Position numbers and translations under genes: made by a program
In this document: positions 52,165 through 62,260 of the stretch, in pieces
Layout: every line of letters starts with the position of its first letter
Numbering within the stretch: the first letter of the stretch is position 1
The notes under the pieces: model-generated
What the model was told of the DNA's origin: nothing
Databases searched by the model: none
Seen by the model: only the letters and a program-made list of their open reading frames with translations
Assembly: GCF_020524765.1 (NCBI RefSeq)
Contig: NZ_JAIVLR010000002.1
Location: 274,501-338,500 of the forward strand
Direction: 5' to 3'
Length of the DNA stretch: 64,000 bases
Origin: Qipengyuania gaetbuli
Lineage (GTDB): Bacteria > Pseudomonadota > Alphaproteobacteria > Sphingomonadales > Sphingomonadaceae

Positions 52165-53037
52165 ATGAGCGCCTACACGCAGATCAAGCTCGACATCGCC
52201 GATGGCGTGGCCATCGTCACGCTGCACCGGCCGGAGAAGATGAACGCCTTCACCCGCGTGATGATGGACGAGTTCATCGATGCGCTCGACGTGACCGATG
52301 CCGATGACAGCGTGCGCGCAGTGATCGTAACGGGGCATGGCGACCGCGCGTTCTGCGCCGGGGCCGACCTCACGCCGGAGGGCGGGGGGCACGTCTTCTC
52401 CGATCCCAACCCGGTGGACAGCCTGTCCGACGAACGCGTGCGCGATGGCGGCGGGCGGCTGACGCTGCGCCTGTTCAACTCGCAGAAGCCGCTGATCGGC
52501 GCTTGCAACGGCGTGGCCGTGGGCGTGGGCGCGACCATGCAGCTGCCCTTCGATATCCGGTTGGCGAGCGACAATGCGCGGTTCGGCTTCGTCTTCGCGC
52601 GGCGCGGGATCACGCCGGAAGCGGCCTCGAGCTGGTTCCTGCCCCGCCTCGTCGGGATGCAAACCGCGCTCGAATGGTGCATGACGGGCCGCGTGTTCGA
52701 CGCGCAGGAAGCGCTCGATCGCGGTCTGGTCCGCTCGCTCCACCCGCAAGCAGAGCTGATGGATGCCGCCATGGGTATCGCGCGCGAGATTGCCGACAAC
52801 ACCTCGGCCGTGTCGGTCGCCATGACCCGCGCGATGCTGTGGCGTCTCTCGCCGCTCGAACATCCGATGATGGCGCACCGCGTGGACAGCCGTGCGATCT
52901 ACCGCCTCAGCCGCAGTGCGGATGCGAAGGAGGGCATCGCCAGCTTCCTCGAGAAGCGTGCGCCTGCCTATCCCGACACGGTCAGCGGCAACATGCCCGA
53001 CTTCTACCCCTGGTGGGACGAACCGGGGTACGAATAG
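52165..53037 (+). CDS. Enoyl-CoA hydratase/isomerase family protein
   Basis: Crotonase-fold enzyme of 290 residues from the ATG at 52165 (AAAGGAGAGGG upstream). CoA-binding/oxyanion segment AFCAGADLTPEGGG and the second oxyanion loop GVAVGVGATMQLPFDIRLAS are present. The catalytic-Glu position falls in RRGITPEAASSWFLPRLVG, where the Glu of PEAAS is retained. It would hydrate 2-enoyl-CoA in the pathway with the adjacent thiolase and SDR. Stop at 53035-53037 abuts the palindrome before marR. Confidence 0.92.
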   Translation: MSAYTQIKLDIADGVAIVTLHRPEKMNAFTRVMMDEFIDALDVTDADDSVRAVIVTGHGDRAFCAGADLTPEGGGHVFSDPNPVDSLSDERVRDGGGRLTLRLFNSQKPLIGACNGVAVGVGATMQLPFDIRLASDNARFGFVFARRGITPEAASSWFLPRLVGMQTALEWCMTGRVFDAQEALDRGLVRSLHPQAELMDAAMGIAREIADNTSAVSVAMTRAMLWRLSPLEHPMMAHRVDSRAIYRLSRSADAKEGIASFLEKRAPAYPDTVSGNMPDFYPWWDEPGYE

Positions 53038-53065
53038 TAACGCTTGTGACGGTTACAAACGCAAC
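53037..53065. promoter_or_regulatory. Imperfect 29-bp palindrome, candidate MarR operator
   Basis: Arms GTAACGCTTGT and ACAAACGCAAC match at 8 of 11 positions around centre 53051, 40 bp upstream of the MarR-type gene. MarR proteins typically bind such palindromes at their own promoters. Confidence 0.5.
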
Positions 53066-53104
53066 GGCCTTGCCAAGGCGCGCCGCCTTCGCAAGGGTGG
53101 CGTC

Positions 53105-53575
53105 ATGTCGAAACGCCAACCTGCCAAGCGCCTAGCGGACTTCCTGCCGTACCAGCTGTCGGTCGCCTCCAACGCGGTCTCGACCCGCATTGCGGAGCAG
53201 TATCGCAAGCGGTTCGCGCTCAAGACTACCGAATGGCGCATCATGGCGGTGCTCGGCGACAGCGGGCCGCTGACCCAGCGCGAGCTTTCGCAGCTCACGC
53301 TGATGGACAAGGTGCCGGTCAATCGCGCCTGCAAGACGCTGGAAAGCCGGGGGCTGGCCGAACGCACGCCCAATGCCAAGGATGGGCGCTCGCACCTGCT
53401 GGCGCTGACGGCGGAGGGCAGGGCGGTTCATGCCGGCATCATGCCGCTGGCCCTGACGATCGAGCGGGAGATGTTCTCGGTGCTCGACGAGAGCGAGCAG
53501 GCGGCGCTGCGCGACATGCTCGCCCGTGTGCGCGACAATGCGGGGGACTTCGATGCAGAAAGCCTGGCCGACTAG
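53105..53575 (+). CDS. MarR-family transcriptional regulator
   Basis: 156-residue winged-helix dimer protein. Start ATG 53105 (MSKRQPAKRL). DNA-recognition region LTQRELSQLTLMDKVPVNRACKTLESRG, wing with NAKDGRSHLLALT and a C-terminal dimer helix. In this setting it probably controls the upstream acyl-CoA genes and itself, sensing an aromatic or fatty-acyl ligand. Longer in-frame extension upstream overlaps the hydratase and is ignored. Its stop lies in a hairpin. Confidence 0.92.
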   Translation: MSKRQPAKRLADFLPYQLSVASNAVSTRIAEQYRKRFALKTTEWRIMAVLGDSGPLTQRELSQLTLMDKVPVNRACKTLESRGLAERTPNAKDGRSHLLALTAEGRAVHAGIMPLALTIEREMFSVLDESEQAALRDMLARVRDNAGDFDAESLAD

Positions 53576-53626: not shown

Positions 53627-54625
53627 TTATCCGATACCGCCACTGAAGGCGTCGGAGATCGAACAGGCTGCCGGGCCGAGAATGACGATGAACAGCACCG
53701 GCAGGATGAACATGATCAGCGGCACGGTCATGATCGCCGGAAGGCGCGCGGCCTTCTCTTCGGCGCGCATCATGCGCTCGTTGCGGAATTCCGCCGACAG
53801 CACGCGCAGCGCACTGGCGAGCGGCGTACCGTAGCGTTCGGTCTGGATCATGGTGGTGACCACGCCCTGCACCGCTTCCAGGTTCACGCGATAGGCAAGG
53901 TGGTCGAAGGCCTGCTTGCGCTCGTTGAGGAAGGACAGCTCGATCGCGGTCAGGGCGAATTCGTCGCCCAGTTCCGGATAGGCGCGGCCCAGTTCCTTGG
54001 CGACGCGGTTGAAAGCGGCGTCGACGGTCAGACCGGCTTCGGCGCAGATGACCAGGAGGTCGAGCGCGTCGGGCAGGCCCTTGCGGATCGCGTCGGTGCG
54101 CTTGGTGGCCTTGTTCTTGAGGACGATTTCCGGGCCCTTGTAGCCAAGGAAGGTCGCCAGTGCGAGCGCGGCCACGCGCTTGAACTGCCAGTCGGGATAG
54201 ATCTCGACGCCGTAGAGCAGGATCGCGGCAATGCCGCCGAGAAGGATCGGCAGCACCATCCGCAGGCCGATGAGTAGGACCGCGACTTCCTTGTTGCGGT
54301 GACCGGCCCAGGCCAGCTTCTGCTGCATGTCCTCGACCTGGCTCTGCTGCAGCACCTTGAGGTTGCCGAGCGTGTCCTTGACCTTGTCCGCCGTGTCATT
54401 CTTGCGCACGAGGCTCTGGCGCTTCTTGGCGCTGGTCGTGATCAGGCCGAGCTTGAGCTCTTCACGGCGGCCTTCGAGCGCTTTCACGCGCTTGGCCATC
54501 GGGTCCTTGATCGTGACGGCCGAATAGATCGCCACGAACACCGCCAGTGCCGCGATCCCGGCAAGGATCGAGCCGACGAGGATGACGTCGAAGCCGAGGA
54601 GGGTGGGGCCGCTTGCGGGTTCCAT
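53627..54625 (-). CDS. tadC: Tad pilus inner-membrane platform protein TadC
   Basis: Type II secretion F-family platform protein of 332 residues from the ATG at 54625. TM helix near the N terminus (about 10-32), GspF-like domain with LPDALDLLVICAEAGLTVDAA and RYGTPLASALRVLSAEFRNERM, and C-terminal helices (PLIMFILPVLFIVILG). Works with TadB as the ring on which the pilus motor turns. Last gene of the minus-strand locus, convergent with marR. Alternative longer frame to 54700 is rejected for lack of a ribosome site. Confidence 0.92.
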   Translation of the reverse strand: MEPASGPTLLGFDVILVGSILAGIAALAVFVAIYSAVTIKDPMAKRVKALEGRREELKLGLITTSAKKRQSLVRKNDTADKVKDTLGNLKVLQQSQVEDMQQKLAWAGHRNKEVAVLLIGLRMVLPILLGGIAAILLYGVEIYPDWQFKRVAALALATFLGYKGPEIVLKNKATKRTDAIRKGLPDALDLLVICAEAGLTVDAAFNRVAKELGRAYPELGDEFALTAIELSFLNERKQAFDHLAYRVNLEAVQGVVTTMIQTERYGTPLASALRVLSAEFRNERMMRAEEKAARLPAIMTVPLIMFILPVLFIVILGPAACSISDAFSGGIG

Positions 54626-54645
54626 GATTGCTCTTCCCTGCTTCC

Positions 54646-55617
54646 TTAGATTTCGAAACTGACCATCTTGGCCATGATGAAGCCGCCGATGCTCATCCAC
54701 ACGAGGCCGCCGAGGCCGGCCACGATCAGGCGGTCATCTTCGAAGAAGGCGCCGATGTAGCTCGGGTTGATCCACCAGATCATGCCGAACACGATGAAGG
54801 GCAGGGCGCCGACGATATAGGCCGAGGCCTTCGATTCCGAGCTCATCGCCCTGATCTTGAGCTTCATCTGCGCACGCTTGCGAAGCACATCCGAAAGGTT
54901 GGACAGCGTTTCAGCGAGGTTACCGCCCGTTTCGCGCTGGATGGCCAGCGTGATGCAGAAGAAGTTGAATTCGGGAATGCCCAGGCGATCGGCAGTCTGC
55001 TGGAGGGCATCCTCCATGGTCCGGCCGATCTTGATGCGCTCGACGATGCCCTTGAATTCCGCGCCCACGGGGCCCGGTACTTCCTGGGCGACGACGGCCA
55101 GCGTCTCGGTCACGGGAAGACCCGAGCGAAGGCCGCGAACGAGCAGTTCGATGGCGTCGGGAAACTTCACGTTGAACTGGTTGGTACGCTTCTTGATCGC
55201 GCGGCCGACGATGAAATGCGGGATGCCTGCACCTGCGAACAGGCCGACACCGATCGAGAGGAGGAACGCGCCGCTCTTCAAGAAGATGAGCAGCGTGAGG
55301 ACCAGCGCGATGCCGAGCGAGGCATAGGCATACTGGCTCAGCGTCCAGCCCTTGCCCGTCCGGTCGAGCCGGATGGCGAGAGCTTCCACGCGCGAGCCGG
55401 ATCCGGCCTGCTTGAACTGCTTGGGCTTGCGGGCAGCGATCGCCTTTTTCAGCTGCGATTCCACCTTGGCATCGGTGCTTTCCGAATGCCGGAAGCGGAG
55501 CTGCTGCAGGCGGCGCTGGCTGTTCTTGCCGGCGTCGGGACCTGCGAAAGCCACGTAACCGAGCACGAGCAGCGTGAAGAGCCCGCCGGTAACCAGCAAG
55601 AGCTGGATCAAGTTCAT
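54646..55617 (-). CDS. tadB: Tad pilus inner-membrane platform protein TadB
   Basis: Type II secretion F-family protein of 323 residues: N-terminal TM helix, a basic cytoplasmic stretch, GspF-like domain (FPDAIELLVRGLRSGLPVTET, then QRETGGNLAETLSNLSDVLR), and C-terminal helices. Paralogue and partner of TadC, 20 bp upstream of it. Separated from cpaE by only 80 bp, so the motor ATPase gene that normally sits between them is missing. Confidence 0.92.
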   Translation of the reverse strand: MNLIQLLLVTGGLFTLLVLGYVAFAGPDAGKNSQRRLQQLRFRHSESTDAKVESQLKKAIAARKPKQFKQAGSGSRVEALAIRLDRTGKGWTLSQYAYASLGIALVLTLLIFLKSGAFLLSIGVGLFAGAGIPHFIVGRAIKKRTNQFNVKFPDAIELLVRGLRSGLPVTETLAVVAQEVPGPVGAEFKGIVERIKIGRTMEDALQQTADRLGIPEFNFFCITLAIQRETGGNLAETLSNLSDVLRKRAQMKLKIRAMSSESKASAYIVGALPFIVFGMIWWINPSYIGAFFEDDRLIVAGLGGLVWMSIGGFIMAKMVSFEI

Positions 55618-55658
55618 CGTGTCTCTCCGTCCCGTCCCGTGATTACTAGGTCAGTCCG

Positions 55659-55690
55659 GGAGGCGGGGGCGCTGGGGCCAACCCGCCTCC
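55659..55690 (-). repeat. Inverted repeat between cpaE and tadB
   Basis: 9-bp perfect arms GGAGGCGGG / CCCGCCTCC separated by 14 nt, exactly where cpaF would be expected. Could be a terminator stem or a deletion scar; no T tract. Confidence 0.5.
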
Positions 55691-55697
55691 GGGATAG

Positions 55698-56987
55698 TTA
55701 TTCGCCCGCGTTCTCGAACTGGGCCTTGTCCTTCTTGGCCAGCAGCGACTTGATGTCGAAGCTGCCCAGCAGCGACTTCTTGTTGCCGCCGACGTCCAGC
55801 GCCTCGTCGCTTTCCTCGTCGCCGAGGCCGATGATGCGCGAGGACAGCTGCTTGATCGCGCCGGTCGCCTTGCTCGAGCCGTTCGCATCCACGAAGGTCT
55901 TGCCAAGCTTGGCGGCGTTCACTGCGGCCTTCGCATCGTACGGGATCGAGACGTCGATCGAGCGTTCGATGGAAGCCTCGAAGTCGGCCTTGCTGATTTC
56001 CTGCATGCCCGGCTGGACCTTGTTGGCCACGATCACCGGAGTGGCATGCGCGGCATTGGTCTTGAGCCAGGACAGGATGCGGATCGTGTCGCGCGCCGAG
56101 GCGAGCGTCATTTCCGTGACCAGCGTCACGACATTCACGTCGTTCAGCAGGTGCGGGAAGTTGATCAGCATGTTGCGCGGCATGTCGACGAGCGTCATCT
56201 CGAAGGCGTGACGGAACTCTTCCTGCAGCTGCAGGAAGGCCGAGCCATCGGTCATCAGCGGCGAGTTGATCGGCGCTTCTGCCGACAGGATCGCCAGGTT
56301 GTCGTTGGCGCGGATCATGGCGCGTTCGATGAACAGGCCGTCGATGCGGCTCGGGTTGTCGATCGCGTCGGTCAGGCCGCGGCCCGGCTCGAGGTCGAGC
56401 GTGAGTGCGCCGACACCGAAGTGCACGTCGAGGTCGAGCAGCGCGGTCGGCATGTGCTTTTCCGCGTAGATCCAGGCGAGCGAGGTCGCGAGGGTCGAGG
56501 CACCGACGCCGCCACGCGTACCCACGACCGCAGTCGAGATATGACGCTTGACCTGGTCGGCCTCGCCGCCGCGCGGGGCCATGAAGACCGCCTGTGCAGC
56601 GTTGAGCGAATCGCGCAGGACCGAGGCCGAGAGCGGCTTCAGCAGGTAGTCGTGGATGCCGCTCGCAAGCAGGTCGCGATAAAGGCGCACGTCGTTGACC
56701 TGGCCGATCGCGATCACCACCGTGCCGGGTTCGCATACCTCGGCGAGGGCGTTGATGTCGTTCAGCGGGTCACCGCTTTCCGACAGGTCGACCATCAGGA
56801 TGTTCGGGCTGGCCGACACCGACAGCGACTGGATCGCGTTGCGCAGGCCGCCCTTGTTGCACTTTTCAGGCTGCCAACCGAGCTCGATCACCACCGGGCG
56901 CAGGACATCCAGCGCGGTTTCGTCGCAGATGAAAGCTGCAAACGGATCGCGATTTCCGGGCATTCCGGATTTCCAGGAAGCGCTCAT
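55698..56987 (-). CDS. cpaE: Tad pilus localisation ATPase CpaE/TadZ
   Basis: 429 residues. N-terminal receiver-like domain (about 15-135) with VDLSESGDP in place of a phosphorylatable pocket, then a MinD/ParA-type ATPase with the atypical P-loop TRGGVGAST (157-165; Ala at the usual Lys position as often in TadZ), ALLDLDVHFGVGAL and a C-terminal region ending ...AQFENAGE. Targets the pilus machine to the pole. Starts 3 bp after cpaD. Confidence 0.92.
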   Translation of the reverse strand: MSASWKSGMPGNRDPFAAFICDETALDVLRPVVIELGWQPEKCNKGGLRNAIQSLSVSASPNILMVDLSESGDPLNDINALAEVCEPGTVVIAIGQVNDVRLYRDLLASGIHDYLLKPLSASVLRDSLNAAQAVFMAPRGGEADQVKRHISTAVVGTRGGVGASTLATSLAWIYAEKHMPTALLDLDVHFGVGALTLDLEPGRGLTDAIDNPSRIDGLFIERAMIRANDNLAILSAEAPINSPLMTDGSAFLQLQEEFRHAFEMTLVDMPRNMLINFPHLLNDVNVVTLVTEMTLASARDTIRILSWLKTNAAHATPVIVANKVQPGMQEISKADFEASIERSIDVSIPYDAKAAVNAAKLGKTFVDANGSSKATGAIKQLSSRIIGLGDEESDEALDVGGNKKSLLGSFDIKSLLAKKDKAQFENAGE

Positions 56988-56990
56988 GAA

Positions 56991-57641
56991 TTAATCCCCT
57001 TCAGTGGTGCTGACTTCGGGCAGGCCGCCCTTTCCGGTCGGCTCCATCTCGCGATAGGCCTTGATGGCCTTGGTCGAAGTGGTGACGACGGTTTCACCGC
57101 TGCCCTGCTGGCCGCGGATCAGATCTTCGGGATTGGCGACCATCGCGGCGAGGTTGCCGTTGATGGCGCAGCCGTAGTTCGGGTTGGTCGCATTGCTGCT
57201 ATTGCCCTCGGCCGTGTGCGACCAGTCCGGGCAACCCGGGACCGATGCAGTCGAACGGGTGATGACCACGCGTGCCTGGCCGGGCTGGGCGTATCCGGCA
57301 GTGACCGGCACACCTTCGGCGAGCAGCAGGCCATAGCGGCCGGCGAGCACGGCGACGTCTTCGCGGACAGCGGCCGAACCGGTCGCGTCCTCGATGGCGA
57401 CGCGGTCACCGTAGCGCAGGTCCATGCTTTCGAACCATTCGGCCAGGCGCTGCTGTTCGGACACGGGCAGGCCGTCGGCATTCGTGTTCACGTCCAGCAC
57501 GAAGTTGGAGCGTTCCACCACCGGCTGCTTCACGCTGTAAAGCGTCCGGTTTTCCATGTTCGAGCTGCCGCAGGCGCCCAGTGCGAGGGCGAGCGAGGCT
57601 GCGATCGAAGCGGTAAGCTTGCGGTTGATTGCGTTAGTCAC
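56991..57641 (-). CDS. cpaD: Tad pilus assembly lipoprotein CpaD
   Basis: 216 residues. Lipobox ALALGAC (Cys about 24) after a signal peptide. The mature part matches CpaD: VVERSNFVLDVNTNADGLP, SMDLRYGDRVAIED, VTAGYAQPGQARVVITRS, then CPDWSHTAEGNSSNATNPNYGC and LAAMVANPEDLIRGQ; the two Cys likely form a disulfide. GTG 57641 has GAGGGG upstream; ATG 57656, overlapping the cpaC stop, is an alternative. Supports the secretin in the outer membrane. Confidence 0.9.
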   Translation of the reverse strand: MTNAINRKLTASIAASLALALGACGSSNMENRTLYSVKQPVVERSNFVLDVNTNADGLPVSEQQRLAEWFESMDLRYGDRVAIEDATGSAAVREDVAVLAGRYGLLLAEGVPVTAGYAQPGQARVVITRSTASVPGCPDWSHTAEGNSSNATNPNYGCAINGNLAAMVANPEDLIRGQQGSGETVVTTSTKAIKAYREMEPTGKGGLPEVSTTEGD

Positions 57642-57652
57642 GTCTCGTCCCC

Positions 57653-59227
57653 TCATTCAAAGCTGAAGCCGGGCTTTGCAGCGGCGGTCTTCTCTTCGCG
57701 GCGGGCTTCGCCCTTGTTTGCCACGCGCTTGTTATCGCCCGAGGTCTCGTAGGAGATCTGCGGATCGGCGCTGCCTGCATCGCGCACGGTCGGAACCGGG
57801 CGGGCGGGGCCTTCGCTGTTGCTGTCGCCTTCGCGGAAGCCCAGCAGGCGCTGGAATTCTGTCGGCTTCTGATAGCCGTCGGTCGGCAGGCGAATGTCGT
57901 TCGCATTGACCGGCTTCACCAGGTACGGCGTAATCACGATGACCAGCTCGGTCTCGCCGCGACGATAGTCGGTCGATCGGAACAGGTTGCCGAGGATCGG
58001 GATGTCACCGAGACCCGGTGCCTTCTCGATCTGGTTGGACTGGTTGTTCGACAGCAGGCCGGCGATCATGAAGCTCTGGCCGGAGCCGAGTTCCACGGTC
58101 GTTTCCGCACGGCGCGTGATAAGCGCGGGGATACGGAAGCCTTCGAACTCGATCGCGCCCTGGGCCGACAGTTCCGATACTTCCGGACGCACGCGGATCG
58201 AGATCCGGCCGTTCGAAAGCACTGTCGGGGTGTAGGCGAGGCTGACGCCGTAGTTCTTGTATTCGATGGTTGTGTTGCCGAGGCCCTGGTTGAGCGGGAT
58301 CGGGAATTCGCCACCGGCGAGGAATTCTGCCGTTTCGCCCGAAAGGGCGGTCAGGTTCGGCTGCGACAGCGTGGTTACCAGGCCCTGCGTTTCCGCAAGG
58401 TCGAGCGCGCCGCCGATGTCGAGGCCGAGGAACTTGCCGGCAAAGCCGAGCGTGCTGCCAAGGTCGGCACCCATGATCGAGGTCGCCGGAACGATGACGT
58501 CTTCACCGGTGATCGGGTTGGTGCCGACATCGTTGGTGCGGGCGTTCATGCCGAGCGACTGGCCGGGTGCGAACAGCGTGGCCGGACGACCCTGGCCGAT
58601 GCCGATCTTGAAGCCGCTGGAGCTGTCGATCGACTGGAGGTTCACGCCCAGCGTGCGAACCAGCGAACGGCTGACTTCCGCGATGCGGACCTGCAGGTTG
58701 ACCTGCAGCGGGGTCGCCATGCGCAGGCGGCTGATGACATTGGTGTCTTCACCCACGAAGGCTTCCACGAGGGCCTGTGCCTCTGCCGCGTCTTCCGGAG
58801 CTGCCACCGTGCCGGTCAGGAGAACCACGTTGGTGCCCATGGTCGCCACGTTGATCTGCGCTTCGGGCATCGCCAGGGCGAGCATCTGGTCGATGCTGCC
58901 GATGTTCGAACCAACGCGGACGTTGGCCGACCAGATGATGTCGCCTGCCGCGTTGCTGGCATAGACCGTGGTCTCGCCGCCGGACTTGCCGAACAGGTAG
59001 AGCTGGCGCTGCGACTTGACCTGCACATCCGCGACGTTCTCGTTCGAGATGAACACGTCGGTCATTGCGCCGGGCACGTTGACCAGTTCGCCGCGACCGA
59101 TCGAGAGGACGATGTCCTGGCTCGGGCGGACAACCGACTGGGCCGTGGCCGTAGTCGTCGGTGCGGCTGCCAGCGGCGCCATCGCCAGGCCGGCAAGCAG
59201 CAGTTTGGTGGAAAGACGACGTTTCAT
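57653..59227 (-). CDS. cpaC: Tad pilus secretin CpaC/RcpA
   Basis: Outer-membrane secretin of 524 residues. Signal peptide to about 30; N-terminal pilus-assembly domain (LSIGRGELVNVPGAMTDVF), BON-like stretch (VVLLTGTVAAPEDAAEAQ), and the C-terminal secretin core (TLSQPNLTALSGETAEFLAGG; GVSLAYTPTVLSNGRISIRV; TELVIVITPYLVKP). The tail of about 65 residues after the core is low complexity. Forms the pore for the Flp pilus. Between cpaB and cpaD with a 4-bp overlap to the alternative cpaD start. Confidence 0.95.
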   Translation of the reverse strand: MKRRLSTKLLLAGLAMAPLAAAPTTTATAQSVVRPSQDIVLSIGRGELVNVPGAMTDVFISNENVADVQVKSQRQLYLFGKSGGETTVYASNAAGDIIWSANVRVGSNIGSIDQMLALAMPEAQINVATMGTNVVLLTGTVAAPEDAAEAQALVEAFVGEDTNVISRLRMATPLQVNLQVRIAEVSRSLVRTLGVNLQSIDSSSGFKIGIGQGRPATLFAPGQSLGMNARTNDVGTNPITGEDVIVPATSIMGADLGSTLGFAGKFLGLDIGGALDLAETQGLVTTLSQPNLTALSGETAEFLAGGEFPIPLNQGLGNTTIEYKNYGVSLAYTPTVLSNGRISIRVRPEVSELSAQGAIEFEGFRIPALITRRAETTVELGSGQSFMIAGLLSNNQSNQIEKAPGLGDIPILGNLFRSTDYRRGETELVIVITPYLVKPVNANDIRLPTDGYQKPTEFQRLLGFREGDSNSEGPARPVPTVRDAGSADPQISYETSGDNKRVANKGEARREEKTAAAKPGFSFE

Positions 59228-59266: not shown

Positions 59267-60385
59267 TTAGCGAAGGGTCTTGAGCGCGACCGGAACAGTG
59301 TCCGCTGCCTTGCCCGCACCGTCGCCAATGGCCTTGTTCATGCTGTGGATCGAACCCTGCATCGCGACCGGAACGGCCTCGGTGCTCTTGCCACGGGTCA
59401 CGCGGACCATCGGACCACGCACGACCGGAGCCGACGGGGCCGAACTGCGCGGCGAAGTGTTGGAGAACGTACCATCTTCATTGTCCGAGGTGCGGCCACG
59501 CGATCCCTGCGGCGGCATCGTGGTGCGCTGGAAGCGCGAGACGTCACCGCCCGTCACATAGGTGCCGCGGGCATCGTCCGGACGGCTCATGGCCGTGCGC
59601 AGGATACGCTCTTCCTCTTCGGGCGTGGCATCGTCGGGGATGCTCACGTCGCCCGAGGCGAGGGCACGTTCGAGTTCGCCTTCGCTGTCGGCGATGGCGC
59701 GCAGCGCGAGGCTGAGCGTGCCGATCGTCTGGGCGACGGCCACCTTCTCGGCGATCACCGGGGTCACTTCGAGCGTAACCGTACGGAACGCCTTGACCTG
59801 GGTAACGCCATCGATGGTTTCCTGCGTGGTCGACTGGTCGGTCGCCAGCACACGAAGGTTACGAAGGATGGTTTCCGATGCTTTCAGCGCCATGCCGTCA
59901 TTGCCGGTCACCGTCTGGGTGAGGACCATGTCGACGCGGTCGCCCGGGAAGACGAAGCCGGCAACGCCGCTCTTCGCATCGACCGGAACCGTGATGGCGC
60001 GCATGCCCGGAGTAAGAGCTGCGGCAAGGAAGCCGCGGTCGCCGGGGCTCACGAGCGAACCCTGGGTCACCGGCTCGCCGGCCGTGATCGGATGACGCAC
60101 GACAGTGCCGATCAGCTTGCTGATGTCGGCCTCGCCGTCGAGGAAGTAGGCATCCTGCACCAGCTCTTCCGGCCACAGCTGGTAGCCGATGGCGTCAGCA
60201 GTGATGATGGTGCCGGTGGGCAGGGCACGCTGCGCGACCAGGACCTTGGGTCCGGCGGCTTCGACCTGCGCTGCGGCGTTGGCATCCGGAGCCGCGGCTC
60301 CTGCGAACATGCTGCGGGCAACAAGTGCCGTGCCGATCGCAACGACCAGCGCACCAACCAGCAGAACCAGCTTCTTCCTATCCAT
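59267..60385 (-). CDS. cpaB: Tad pilus assembly protein CpaB/RcpC
   Basis: 372 residues: N-terminal membrane helix (about 5-28), then a SAF-type domain (VLVAQRALPTGTIITADAIG; GTVVRHPITAGEPVTQGSLV) and the RcpC domain (MRAITVPVDAKSGVAGFVFPGDRVDMVL). The C-terminal 110 residues are Ser/Pro/Arg-rich and probably disordered. It may act as a periplasmic scaffold for the secretin. Follows cpaA after 91 bp that contain hairpins. Confidence 0.93.
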   Translation of the reverse strand: MDRKKLVLLVGALVVAIGTALVARSMFAGAAAPDANAAAQVEAAGPKVLVAQRALPTGTIITADAIGYQLWPEELVQDAYFLDGEADISKLIGTVVRHPITAGEPVTQGSLVSPGDRGFLAAALTPGMRAITVPVDAKSGVAGFVFPGDRVDMVLTQTVTGNDGMALKASETILRNLRVLATDQSTTQETIDGVTQVKAFRTVTLEVTPVIAEKVAVAQTIGTLSLALRAIADSEGELERALASGDVSIPDDATPEEEERILRTAMSRPDDARGTYVTGGDVSRFQRTTMPPQGSRGRTSDNEDGTFSNTSPRSSAPSAPVVRGPMVRVTRGKSTEAVPVAMQGSIHSMNKAIGDGAGKAADTVPVALKTLR

Positions 60386-60476: not shown

Positions 60477-61190
60477 TCAGCCCAAAGAGGTCTGAGAAAA
60501 GTCTGCAACGAGATCACCGCCCGCGACCCACAGGCCGGCGATTGCGATGGCGAGTCCGTAAGGAATGCGCGGCTGCTGGTCGTGCCGGCGGATGATCCGG
60601 ATCGAGGCCAGCGTAACGAACGAAAGAATGGCAACCGGCACCAGCGCGACCAGGATCGACGCGGCCCCGTTCGAGGCCAGCGGTTCCATGATCGCATCGG
60701 GCAGGGCCAGCTTGGGACCACCCAGGACGGCGCTGGCGAAATTCGCCGCGACCAGCGTGCAGGCACCCAGCAGCAGCGTATCGCGGACAGGACGTCCGCC
60801 CACGACGCGCGAATGCGCAACGCCCCACATGCCCATGGCCAGGGTCAGTACCCAGCCGGCCATGGCCATGATGATGACCAGCACCATGAAGTTGGTCGGC
60901 GGGAACCACAGCGCCAGCGCGGTCAGCAGCTTTACGTCGCCGCCGCCCATCTGGCGGATGGCGAAGAACAGACAGCAGACCGCGAAGGTCACGACTGCGA
61001 TAACGAGTTGAATGGCAACGCCGGGCCACAGCGAAAGTCCGCTGGCCCACCAGAACAGCGGCGCGCCGGCGGCGATCGCCAGGTTAAGGCGATTGCCGAT
61101 GGTGCGGCTCTTGAGATCGGTCACCGCTGCCCACAGCAGGCCGATTGCCAAGGCGGCAAGCAAAACGTAGGTGAAAATCTGGTCGTGCAT
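60477..61190 (-). CDS. cpaA: Prepilin peptidase CpaA/TadV (A24)
   Basis: Inner-membrane aspartyl protease that matures Flp-type prepilins, 237 residues from the ATG at 61190. Seven or so hydrophobic helices. Catalytic Asp pair: DLKSRTIGNRLN after the first helix and the GxGD motif in MGGGDVKLLTAL. A GTG one codon upstream is possible; GGGGGC precedes. First gene of the minus-strand tad/cpa locus. Its pilin substrate gene is not in this window. Confidence 0.94.
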   Translation of the reverse strand: MHDQIFTYVLLAALAIGLLWAAVTDLKSRTIGNRLNLAIAAGAPLFWWASGLSLWPGVAIQLVIAVVTFAVCCLFFAIRQMGGGDVKLLTALALWFPPTNFMVLVIIMAMAGWVLTLAMGMWGVAHSRVVGGRPVRDTLLLGACTLVAANFASAVLGGPKLALPDAIMEPLASNGAASILVALVPVAILSFVTLASIRIIRRHDQQPRIPYGLAIAIAGLWVAGGDLVADFSQTSLG

Positions 61191-61252
61191 CACGCCCCCG
61201 GAACTGATCTCAGGGGGTGGTGCTACCGAAACATGCTTACCAAATAGTAACC

Positions 61253-62260
61253 ATGCCATCGACGCGCATGCCGGAGGACATCATTCCCGACGCCACCGAA
61301 AAAACCGCCCGGACAGCAATCGATCGCCGCGCCATCCCGGCCCATGCGAGCGAGGGCGTGTGGATGGCCGCAGACGGCCATGCGTTGCGCCGGATCGACT
61401 GGCCGGGCGCGCAGGGCTCGCCGCGCGGCTCGATCCTGTTCCTGCCGGGGCGCGGCGACTTCTACGAGAAATACCTCGAGACGCTTGAGGAATGGCATCG
61501 GGCAGGCTGGGGGGTGACCGCGGCCGACTGGCGCGGTCAGGCAGGCTCGGGCCGTTTGGGCGACGATGCGATCACCGGCCATGTCGGCGACTTCTCCGAC
61601 TGGGTGGACGATCTTGCGCACCTGTGGCGCGAGTGGGCGGCACAGACCCCGGGCCCGCATGTCCTCGCCGCGCATTCCATGGGCGGGCATATCGTCATGC
61701 GCGCCCTCGTGGACGGTGCCGTATCGCCCGATGCGGTGGTCCTGTCCGCTCCGATGCTCGGCATGAGCGGCCCGCCTCTGCCGCTGCCGCTGCTTCACGG
61801 CGTCGCCAAGGTCATGACCAAGGTCGGCGAACCGACGCGGCCTGCGTGGAAGTGGAGCGAGAAGCCCGGCGAAATCCCTGCACGCCGCCGCGACCTGCTC
61901 ACTCATGACGGTGAACGCTATGCCGATGAACTCTGGTGGCGCGAGAAGCGCCCGGAGCTGGTCATGGGCCCGGGCAGCTGGGGCTGGGTCGAGCGTGCCT
62001 ATGCCTCGACCCGCGCGATCGAGGCTGCGGGCGCGATGGAGGGAATCGACGTGCCAGTGCTGATCGTCTCCACCACGAACGACAAGCTGGTCAGCCACGC
62101 TGCGGCCAAACGCGCGGCCGAACGCCTGCCGCACGGCGAGCTGGTCGAGTTCGGCGCGGAAGCCCATCACGAGATTTTCCGCGAGGTGCCAGCCGTACGT
62201 AATCGCGCACTAGGCGCCGTGACCGATTTCCTTGACCGGGTGGCACCCGCCGCATCGTGA
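61253..62260 (+). CDS. Alpha/beta hydrolase, monoglyceride-lipase-like (serine aminopeptidase S33 fold)
   Basis: 335 residues. Nucleophile elbow AAHSMGGH (Ser142), catalytic Asp in STTNDKLVS and His in EAHHEIFRE. The LPGRGDFYEKY oxyanion stretch and ADWRGQAGSGR are typical of bacterial monoacylglycerol lipase/lysophospholipase YtpA/PldB types. No signal peptide. Starts proposed at ATG 61253; ATG 61268 is an alternative. Its stop overlaps the next gene's GTG (GTGA). Divergent from the tad locus. Substrate inferred. Confidence 0.88.
   Translation: MPSTRMPEDIIPDATEKTARTAIDRRAIPAHASEGVWMAADGHALRRIDWPGAQGSPRGSILFLPGRGDFYEKYLETLEEWHRAGWGVTAADWRGQAGSGRLGDDAITGHVGDFSDWVDDLAHLWREWAAQTPGPHVLAAHSMGGHIVMRALVDGAVSPDAVVLSAPMLGMSGPPLPLPLLHGVAKVMTKVGEPTRPAWKWSEKPGEIPARRRDLLTHDGERYADELWWREKRPELVMGPGSWGWVERAYASTRAIEAAGAMEGIDVPVLIVSTTNDKLVSHAAAKRAAERLPHGELVEFGAEAHHEIFREVPAVRNRALGAVTDFLDRVAPAAS

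Follow-up and report, generated by a model that had tools for sequence, protein, structure and literature searches.

The tad/cpa locus in this 64-kb window of the Qipengyuania gaetbuli genome is best explained as the trunk of a Tad (type IVc) pilus system, complete though dispersed, the motor of which is a stand-alone CpaF and the operonic motor copy of which has been lost; we put the probability of this reading at about 0.88. It is built on the observed gene content, gene positions, trees and co-occurrence, from which we infer that the stand-alone CpaF physically powers the platform encoded in the window. By window we mean the whole stretch that was analysed (64,000 nucleotides, C2:274501-338500), which belongs to a 2.8 Mb genome in four contigs that is 99.99% complete. 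The locus and its flanks are composed of the following features.

52892-53575, plus strand: MarR-type gene; overlaps an enoyl-CoA hydratase frame at that frame's end
53627-54700, minus strand: tadC/cpaH, inner-membrane platform (PF00482, 68.3 bits)
54646-55617, minus strand: tadB/cpaG, inner-membrane platform (PF00482, 95.1 bits)
55618-55697, minus strand: cpaE-tadB junction of 80 bp, the site of cpaF in sister families
55655-55694, minus strand: stem-loop just past the cpaE stop (arms 55694-55681 and 55668-55655), without a following T-run
55698-56987, minus strand: cpaE/tadZ, MinD-like ATPase (CbiA/ParA matches just under the Pfam cut-offs; operon place; matched in relatives, best 80 of 246)
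56991-57656, minus strand: cpaD (PF09476, 154.7 bits)
57653-59227, minus strand: cpaC, secretin (PF00263 and PF13629)
59267-60385, minus strand: cpaB/rcpC (PF16976, 114 bits)
60477-61259, minus strand: cpaA, prepilin peptidase (PF01478, 54.4 bits)
61217-62260, plus strand: alpha/beta hydrolase, flanking the cpaA side

The Pfam matches bear out the original prediction of a minus-strand run cpaA-cpaB-cpaC-cpaD-cpaE-tadB-tadC (61259-53627), flanked by the MarR-type gene and the alpha/beta hydrolase, and the seven reading frames are all open. CpaE was named from MinD/ParA-type Pfam and MinD/CpaE-type NCBIfam matches, all of which are below their cut-offs, and from its position in the operon. With this proviso for CpaE, the trunk parts of a Tad system are present, namely the secretin, CpaB, CpaD, CpaE, TadB, TadC and the prepilin peptidase. 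According to whole-genome searches, this genome encodes three T2SSE-type ATPases and four Flp pilins, all of them outside the window, and a six-frame scan of the window's 64 kb for the Flp motif gave zero matches. The absence of cpaF and of an Flp pilin from the locus was therefore predicted correctly.

The spacing of 80 bp between cpaE and tadB is likewise as claimed, and the locus was compared with that of close relatives, as had been proposed. The nearest named relatives by CpaE are Qipengyuania species, with best segments 93-94% identical in the top three (among the best 80 of 246 relatives). One of these 80 loci stops short of tadB, and in the remaining 79 of 79 tadB directly follows cpaE after a gap of 29-177 bp. 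The same arrangement is found in 33 of 33 further family loci that have tadB in reach and cpaF elsewhere. Tblastn searches of the 80 loci with both CpaF proteins of this genome found no cpaF, and searches with three pilins, together with a scan for the Flp motif, found no pilin. CpaD and CpaE were matched in all 80 loci, CpaC and TadB in 79, TadC in 77, CpaB in 76 and CpaA in 75, and the missing matches fall in loci that are cut short. A collapse of the assembly at 55.6 kb that dropped cpaF from the contig, which had been put forward as one possibility, has nothing in its favour except the absence of cpaF itself. As the junction is the same in all 79 named relatives and all 33 further loci, a local misassembly has a negligible chance of being the explanation and we reject it.

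A search of the whole genome for T2SSE-family proteins returned three: the stand-alone CpaF, a second CpaF located in another tad locus, and a VirB11, which sits in a locus with a VirB4-like gene. Searches for the Flp and TadE families completed the picture. The features outside the window, listed without strand, are as follows.

C1:522262-523782: stand-alone CpaF, 507 aa (T2SSE family search)
C1:1.542-1.553 Mb (L008:5178-16192): second tad locus, divergent (domain scan, ten ORFs)
C1:1545031-1546218: second-locus CpaF (T2SSE search)
C1:150235 and 150533: Flp pilin pair (Flp family search)
C2:771424: Flp pilin (Flp family search)
C2:931-932 kb: TadG-like gene, then TadE-type genes (TadE search)
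C2:573 kb: TadE-type cassette (TadE search)

The genome has four Flp pilins, three of which, at two places beyond the window, exceed the cut-off, while the fourth, in the second tad locus, is below it. TadE matches over the cut-off number six, two of them in the second tad locus. The latter also contains cpaB, a secretin, a TadG-like gene, a CpaE-like gene, the CpaF, two T2SSF genes and a TPR gene, and neither cpaA nor cpaD was found in the ten ORFs scanned. Leaving this second locus aside, the parts away from the window locus are cpaF, the pilins (at two places) and the TadE-type genes (likewise at two). The usual single-locus Tad arrangement, which does not define the system, is not found here, and the complete Tad part list is present and dispersed over the genome. 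Of the explanations that the original prediction had offered, a split locus, with cpaF and the pilins elsewhere in the same genome, is the one that these searches support.

The stand-alone CpaF has the features of a Tad motor. In the 25 aligned family copies, the motif that we take to be Walker A is identical in all 25, the presumed Walker B has two forms, and the presumed His-box has three forms that are 1-2 residues apart. Residues 29-505 of the query match the solved Caulobacter CpaF (9e24) with an E value of 7e-144. The protein scores under the cut-off of NCBIfam TIGR03819 (TadA), 332 vs 373 bits; as the second-locus CpaF misses it too (352 vs 373 bits), this cut-off was not taken as defining in this group. 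An AlphaFold3 model, described in the available part of PMC12019362, predicts that CpaF touches the platform with alpha5, loop 8 and the extended pore loop. Mapped through alignment to the solved Caulobacter CpaF, all three stretches are recognisable in the stand-alone and in the operonic CpaF clades, with differences between the clades.

The original prediction had also considered that the same gap might occur in all relatives with cpaF at a fixed second locus. The gap does recur, and the place of the stand-alone gene is largely, not strictly, fixed. In 14 of 26 family contexts (L118-L121, L123-L125, L127-L132 and L205), atpC of the F1 ATP synthase is found 0.1-2.2 kb upstream in the same direction, and in 6 of 26 an HD-domain gene, which is presumably dGTPase-like, is located within about 5.4 kb. 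One context, L205, has both, so that 19 of 26 have at least one of these neighbours and 7 have neither. The window genome and its congener (L113) have the HD-domain gene near cpaF and no atpC. These two neighbours, at least one of which occurs in each of the 19 contexts, suggest that the place is largely inherited and was later rearranged. A scan of 27 contexts for the Flp motif found no pilin beside the stand-alone cpaF. In the window genome we also observed an IS3-like transposase (rve, HTH_21; L009:4823-5713 on C1), which precedes the stand-alone cpaF by about 550 bp and has no match in the congener's context.

The distribution of the two proteins was surveyed in 119 genomes of the family, and all counts in this paragraph and the next refer to the matches listed. 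Some CpaE match exists in 111 genomes. With window-type CpaE defined as 53% identity or more, 97 of the 119 genomes have both window-type CpaE and the stand-alone CpaF (an operonic cpaF is also present in four), three have window-type CpaE with operonic cpaF only (G012, G022 and G052), one has the stand-alone CpaF without window-type CpaE (G070, a genome in about 200 contigs) and 18 have neither. The association is strong (Fisher p 3e-17, uncorrected for kinship). In 75 of the 97 co-occurrence genomes the stand-alone CpaF is the sole CpaF-type protein, and all 100 genomes with window-type CpaE have a stand-alone or an operonic CpaF. In 93 of these 100, cpaF is away from the locus and none is in it.

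A few genomes require comment. G013, G030 and G113 (CpaE 32-35%) were not counted as window-type, nor was G007, the CpaE of which is in pieces of 47-59% in a genome that is 86% complete with 7% contamination; its cpaF lies in two pieces right after CpaE, and if counted, it would be a fourth operonic-only genome. The absence of the stand-alone copy is weak evidence in the incomplete genomes G022 (67% complete) and G012 (91%) and better in G052 (97% complete, 2 contigs). Of the 111 genomes with some CpaE match, 104 (best row at least 32%) were used to pair CpaE with CpaF, second-locus CpaF rows being left out. The two were found within 3 kb of each other in 9 genomes, whereas in 93 they were either separated by more than 11 kb (55 genomes) or on different contigs (38 genomes). 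No CpaF was paired in the remaining 2, one being G007 with its cpaF after CpaE. In the sister families, cpaF directly precedes tadB in 28 of 28 testable genomes among the matches listed, these being the genomes that, among 41 TadB rows from other families, also have a CpaF row (in one of them, G130, a fragment of 41 residues). An Flp pilin is located upstream in three of the four sister-family loci read; the fourth is cut just before cpaA.

A motor borrowed from another kind of system, as the original prediction had suggested, finds little support, because the T2SSE search yielded only the two CpaF-type proteins and VirB11 and because, of the 97 genomes that combine window-type CpaE with the stand-alone CpaF, 75 have no further CpaF-type protein listed. 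A T2SS or type IVa pilus motor is rejected on the same search. A closer competitor is the second-locus CpaF, in which case the stand-alone protein would have another job. A CpaF of this second-locus type occurs in 23 of the 119 family genomes, among the matches listed. Each of the two proteins is an intact ATPase of the CpaF type, they share 52% identity over 396 residues, and the second-locus protein could serve the window platform in this genome, at least partly. The co-occurrence data for the 119 genomes (among the matches listed) nevertheless disfavour it as the sole motor. Neither it nor an operonic CpaF is listed in 75 of the 97 co-occurrence genomes, it shows no association with the stand-alone CpaF (p 0.55), and all five genomes that have it without window-type CpaE also lack the stand-alone CpaF. 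We regard this alternative as improbable.

Even less probable, and in our view very unlikely, is a decaying locus in which cpaF was simply deleted and the other genes are relics. The operonic cpaF has truly been lost, as such a scenario would have it. However, the seven frames are open in the window and matched across the 80 named relatives (best 80 of 246), every one of the 100 genomes with window-type CpaE keeps a stand-alone or operonic CpaF (among the matches listed), and Sphingopyxis expresses these genes under joint regulation, according to the available part of PMC6472365. Hence, the preferred explanation remains a dispersed pilus system driven by the stand-alone CpaF.

The history of the motor genes was reconstructed from two trees. 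In the tree of 57 CpaF proteins, 31 rows form a stand-alone clade (100/100), inside which the 25 family copies are one clade (100/99); the other six are CpaF copies from other families. Five of the latter genomes (G120, G132, G139, G140 and G142) also have a CpaF of the operonic clade in the tree, and G130 has only a fragment of the operonic one, before its tadB. Operonic copies make up a separate group of 23 rows (97/95), and the CpaF proteins of G013 and G030 fall outside both groups. The tree is rooted on the second-locus CpaF, the long branch of which makes the root unsure. On this phylogeny, the stand-alone clade appears to be older than the family. G139 (L203) and G140 (L204), from other families, have long-branched CpaF proteins of the stand-alone clade, and no TadB or CpaE match was found in the 12-13 kb read around them.

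In the tree of concatenated CpaE and TadB (50 rows), 38 split loci form one clade (100/100), outside which the family's operonic and double loci branch. Both kinds of CpaF are carried by G085, G040, G056 and G005, and a further split locus, that of G099, is placed beside G005, a member of the same genus in which both copies persist. Judged by this topology, there were at least two losses of the operonic cpaF. G052 took the opposite route and lacks the stand-alone copy; the same holds, with less certainty, for G012 and G022. Loss in either direction, together with not a single genome without CpaF among the 100 with window-type CpaE (among the matches listed), is what redundancy of the two copies predicts. 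Furthermore, the distances of the stand-alone CpaF agree with those of CpaE and TadB in 20 genomes (Mantel r 0.75, permutation p 0.0002; r 0.72 when G045 is left out), as is expected under joint inheritance. The genome left out, G045 (L125 / L189), has a stand-alone CpaF 89% identical to that of the window genome and a CpaE only 55% identical; its tad locus is either unusually fast-evolving or exchanged.

These results are best read as an exchange of motors, the two being redundant paralogues. The duplicate of CpaF that lies outside the operon would predate the family, and for some time both copies would have been present and redundant. The operonic cpaF would then have disappeared where the main family clade began and a second time in a side lineage, so that tadB came to adjoin cpaE. 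The suggestion that cpaF was deleted therefore holds as history for the operonic copy and fails for the motor as such, an older stand-alone copy having been kept. With somewhat better than even confidence, we propose that the ancient stand-alone CpaF replaced the operon motor through this stage with both present, and that a compact, transferable Tad island thereby became a dispersed core with a separately regulated motor.

In the present-day cell, the stand-alone CpaF would form the usual hexamer and dock on the platform that tadB and tadC of the window encode. It would drive extension and retraction of a pilus built from the distant Flp pilins (the pair at C1:150 kb and the one at C2:771 kb), with TadG/TadE-type minor pilins from C2:931-932 kb and/or C2:573 kb assisting. 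Its working would be that of any Tad motor, the gene merely being located elsewhere.

The former cpaF site contains a stem-loop just past the cpaE stop. The 9-bp inverted repeat that had been predicted in the gap is real and turned out to be longer than described, the best arms spanning 14 bases each (coordinates listed above). Compared with 500 dinucleotide shuffles, the window stem ranks in the top 5%, whereas a cruder test with single-base shuffles gives a z of only -1.0; across 80 loci the latter test is weak (median z -1.6, 33 of 80 below -2). With dinucleotide shuffles, a significant stem (top 5%) is found in 32 of the 78 gaps between cpaE and tadB that were tested in named relatives (median z 1.8), one of the 79 gaps being left out as shorter than 30 or longer than 250 bases, vs 0 of 67 control cpaA-cpaB gaps (median z 0.4; loci without both hits or with gaps outside 30-250 bases left out). 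The 78 rows come from related sequences and hence are not independent. The best stem begins within 20 bases of the cpaE stop in 65 of the 78, and the recurrent stem-loops differ in sequence among the gaps of the Erythrobacter group (the window and L013-L092). Outside this group, a significant stem is rarer (6 of 27 gaps, those below 30 or above 200 bases left out), so that its presence is not diagnostic of the split itself, and without a T-run the window stem is not a classical terminator. As a guess, it may help to process the mRNA or to adjust how much trunk protein is made relative to platform protein. If the motor replacement is true, the stem-loop after cpaE could in the Erythrobacter group be part of a new uncoupling of trunk and platform genes.

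The published Tad systems provide a frame for these findings, each source being cited here for its available part. The Caulobacter-type locus, pilA-cpaABCDEF-tadBC (cpaGH) (PMC10934763), has the same genes in the same order as the window, save cpaF and the pilin; unlike there, cpaF, pilins and minor pilins are here each at other places of the genome. In Sinorhizobium meliloti there are, as here, two tad clusters and an orphan pilin gene, but flp-1 and flp-2 each keep their own cpaF, unlike the window locus (PMC10934763). The same split is tabulated for Sphingopyxis granuli TFA, where RNA-seq lists cpaABCDEtadBC, the Flp pilin, tadGE1E2 and cpaF in four separate gene-number ranges, which probably correspond to separate places, and all are repressed without oxygen (cpaABCDEtadBC -4 to -13, Flp pilin -9, tadGE1E2 -4 to -5, cpaF -5; PMC6472365). 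This joint repression is independent support for the dispersed genes working as one system. Since the table already gives separate ranges, the split itself is in print; the available part of that paper makes no remark on the split, its age or the origin of the cpaF paralogue. The split is not shown in the available parts of PMC6668835, PMC10934763, PMC12019362 and PMC6374434, and in the open-licence literature we found no description of its family-wide extent or of the paralogue replacement.

According to the available part of the survey by Denise et al. 2019, Tad systems are almost exclusively single-locus and multi-locus ones very rare, a rule that the survey ties to frequent horizontal transfer (PMC6668835). 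The surveyed systems have the same components as here (motor ATPase, two platform proteins, TadZ, secretin and pilin; PMC6668835). Unlike in them, cpaF is outside the locus in the 93 of 100 family genomes given above (window-type CpaE, among the matches listed). The family is a family-scale exception to the published single-locus Tad rule, and locus-based genome tools that expect clustered Tad genes may call such systems incomplete. With operonic, stand-alone or both motors on related platforms, the family is also a natural test of motor exchange.
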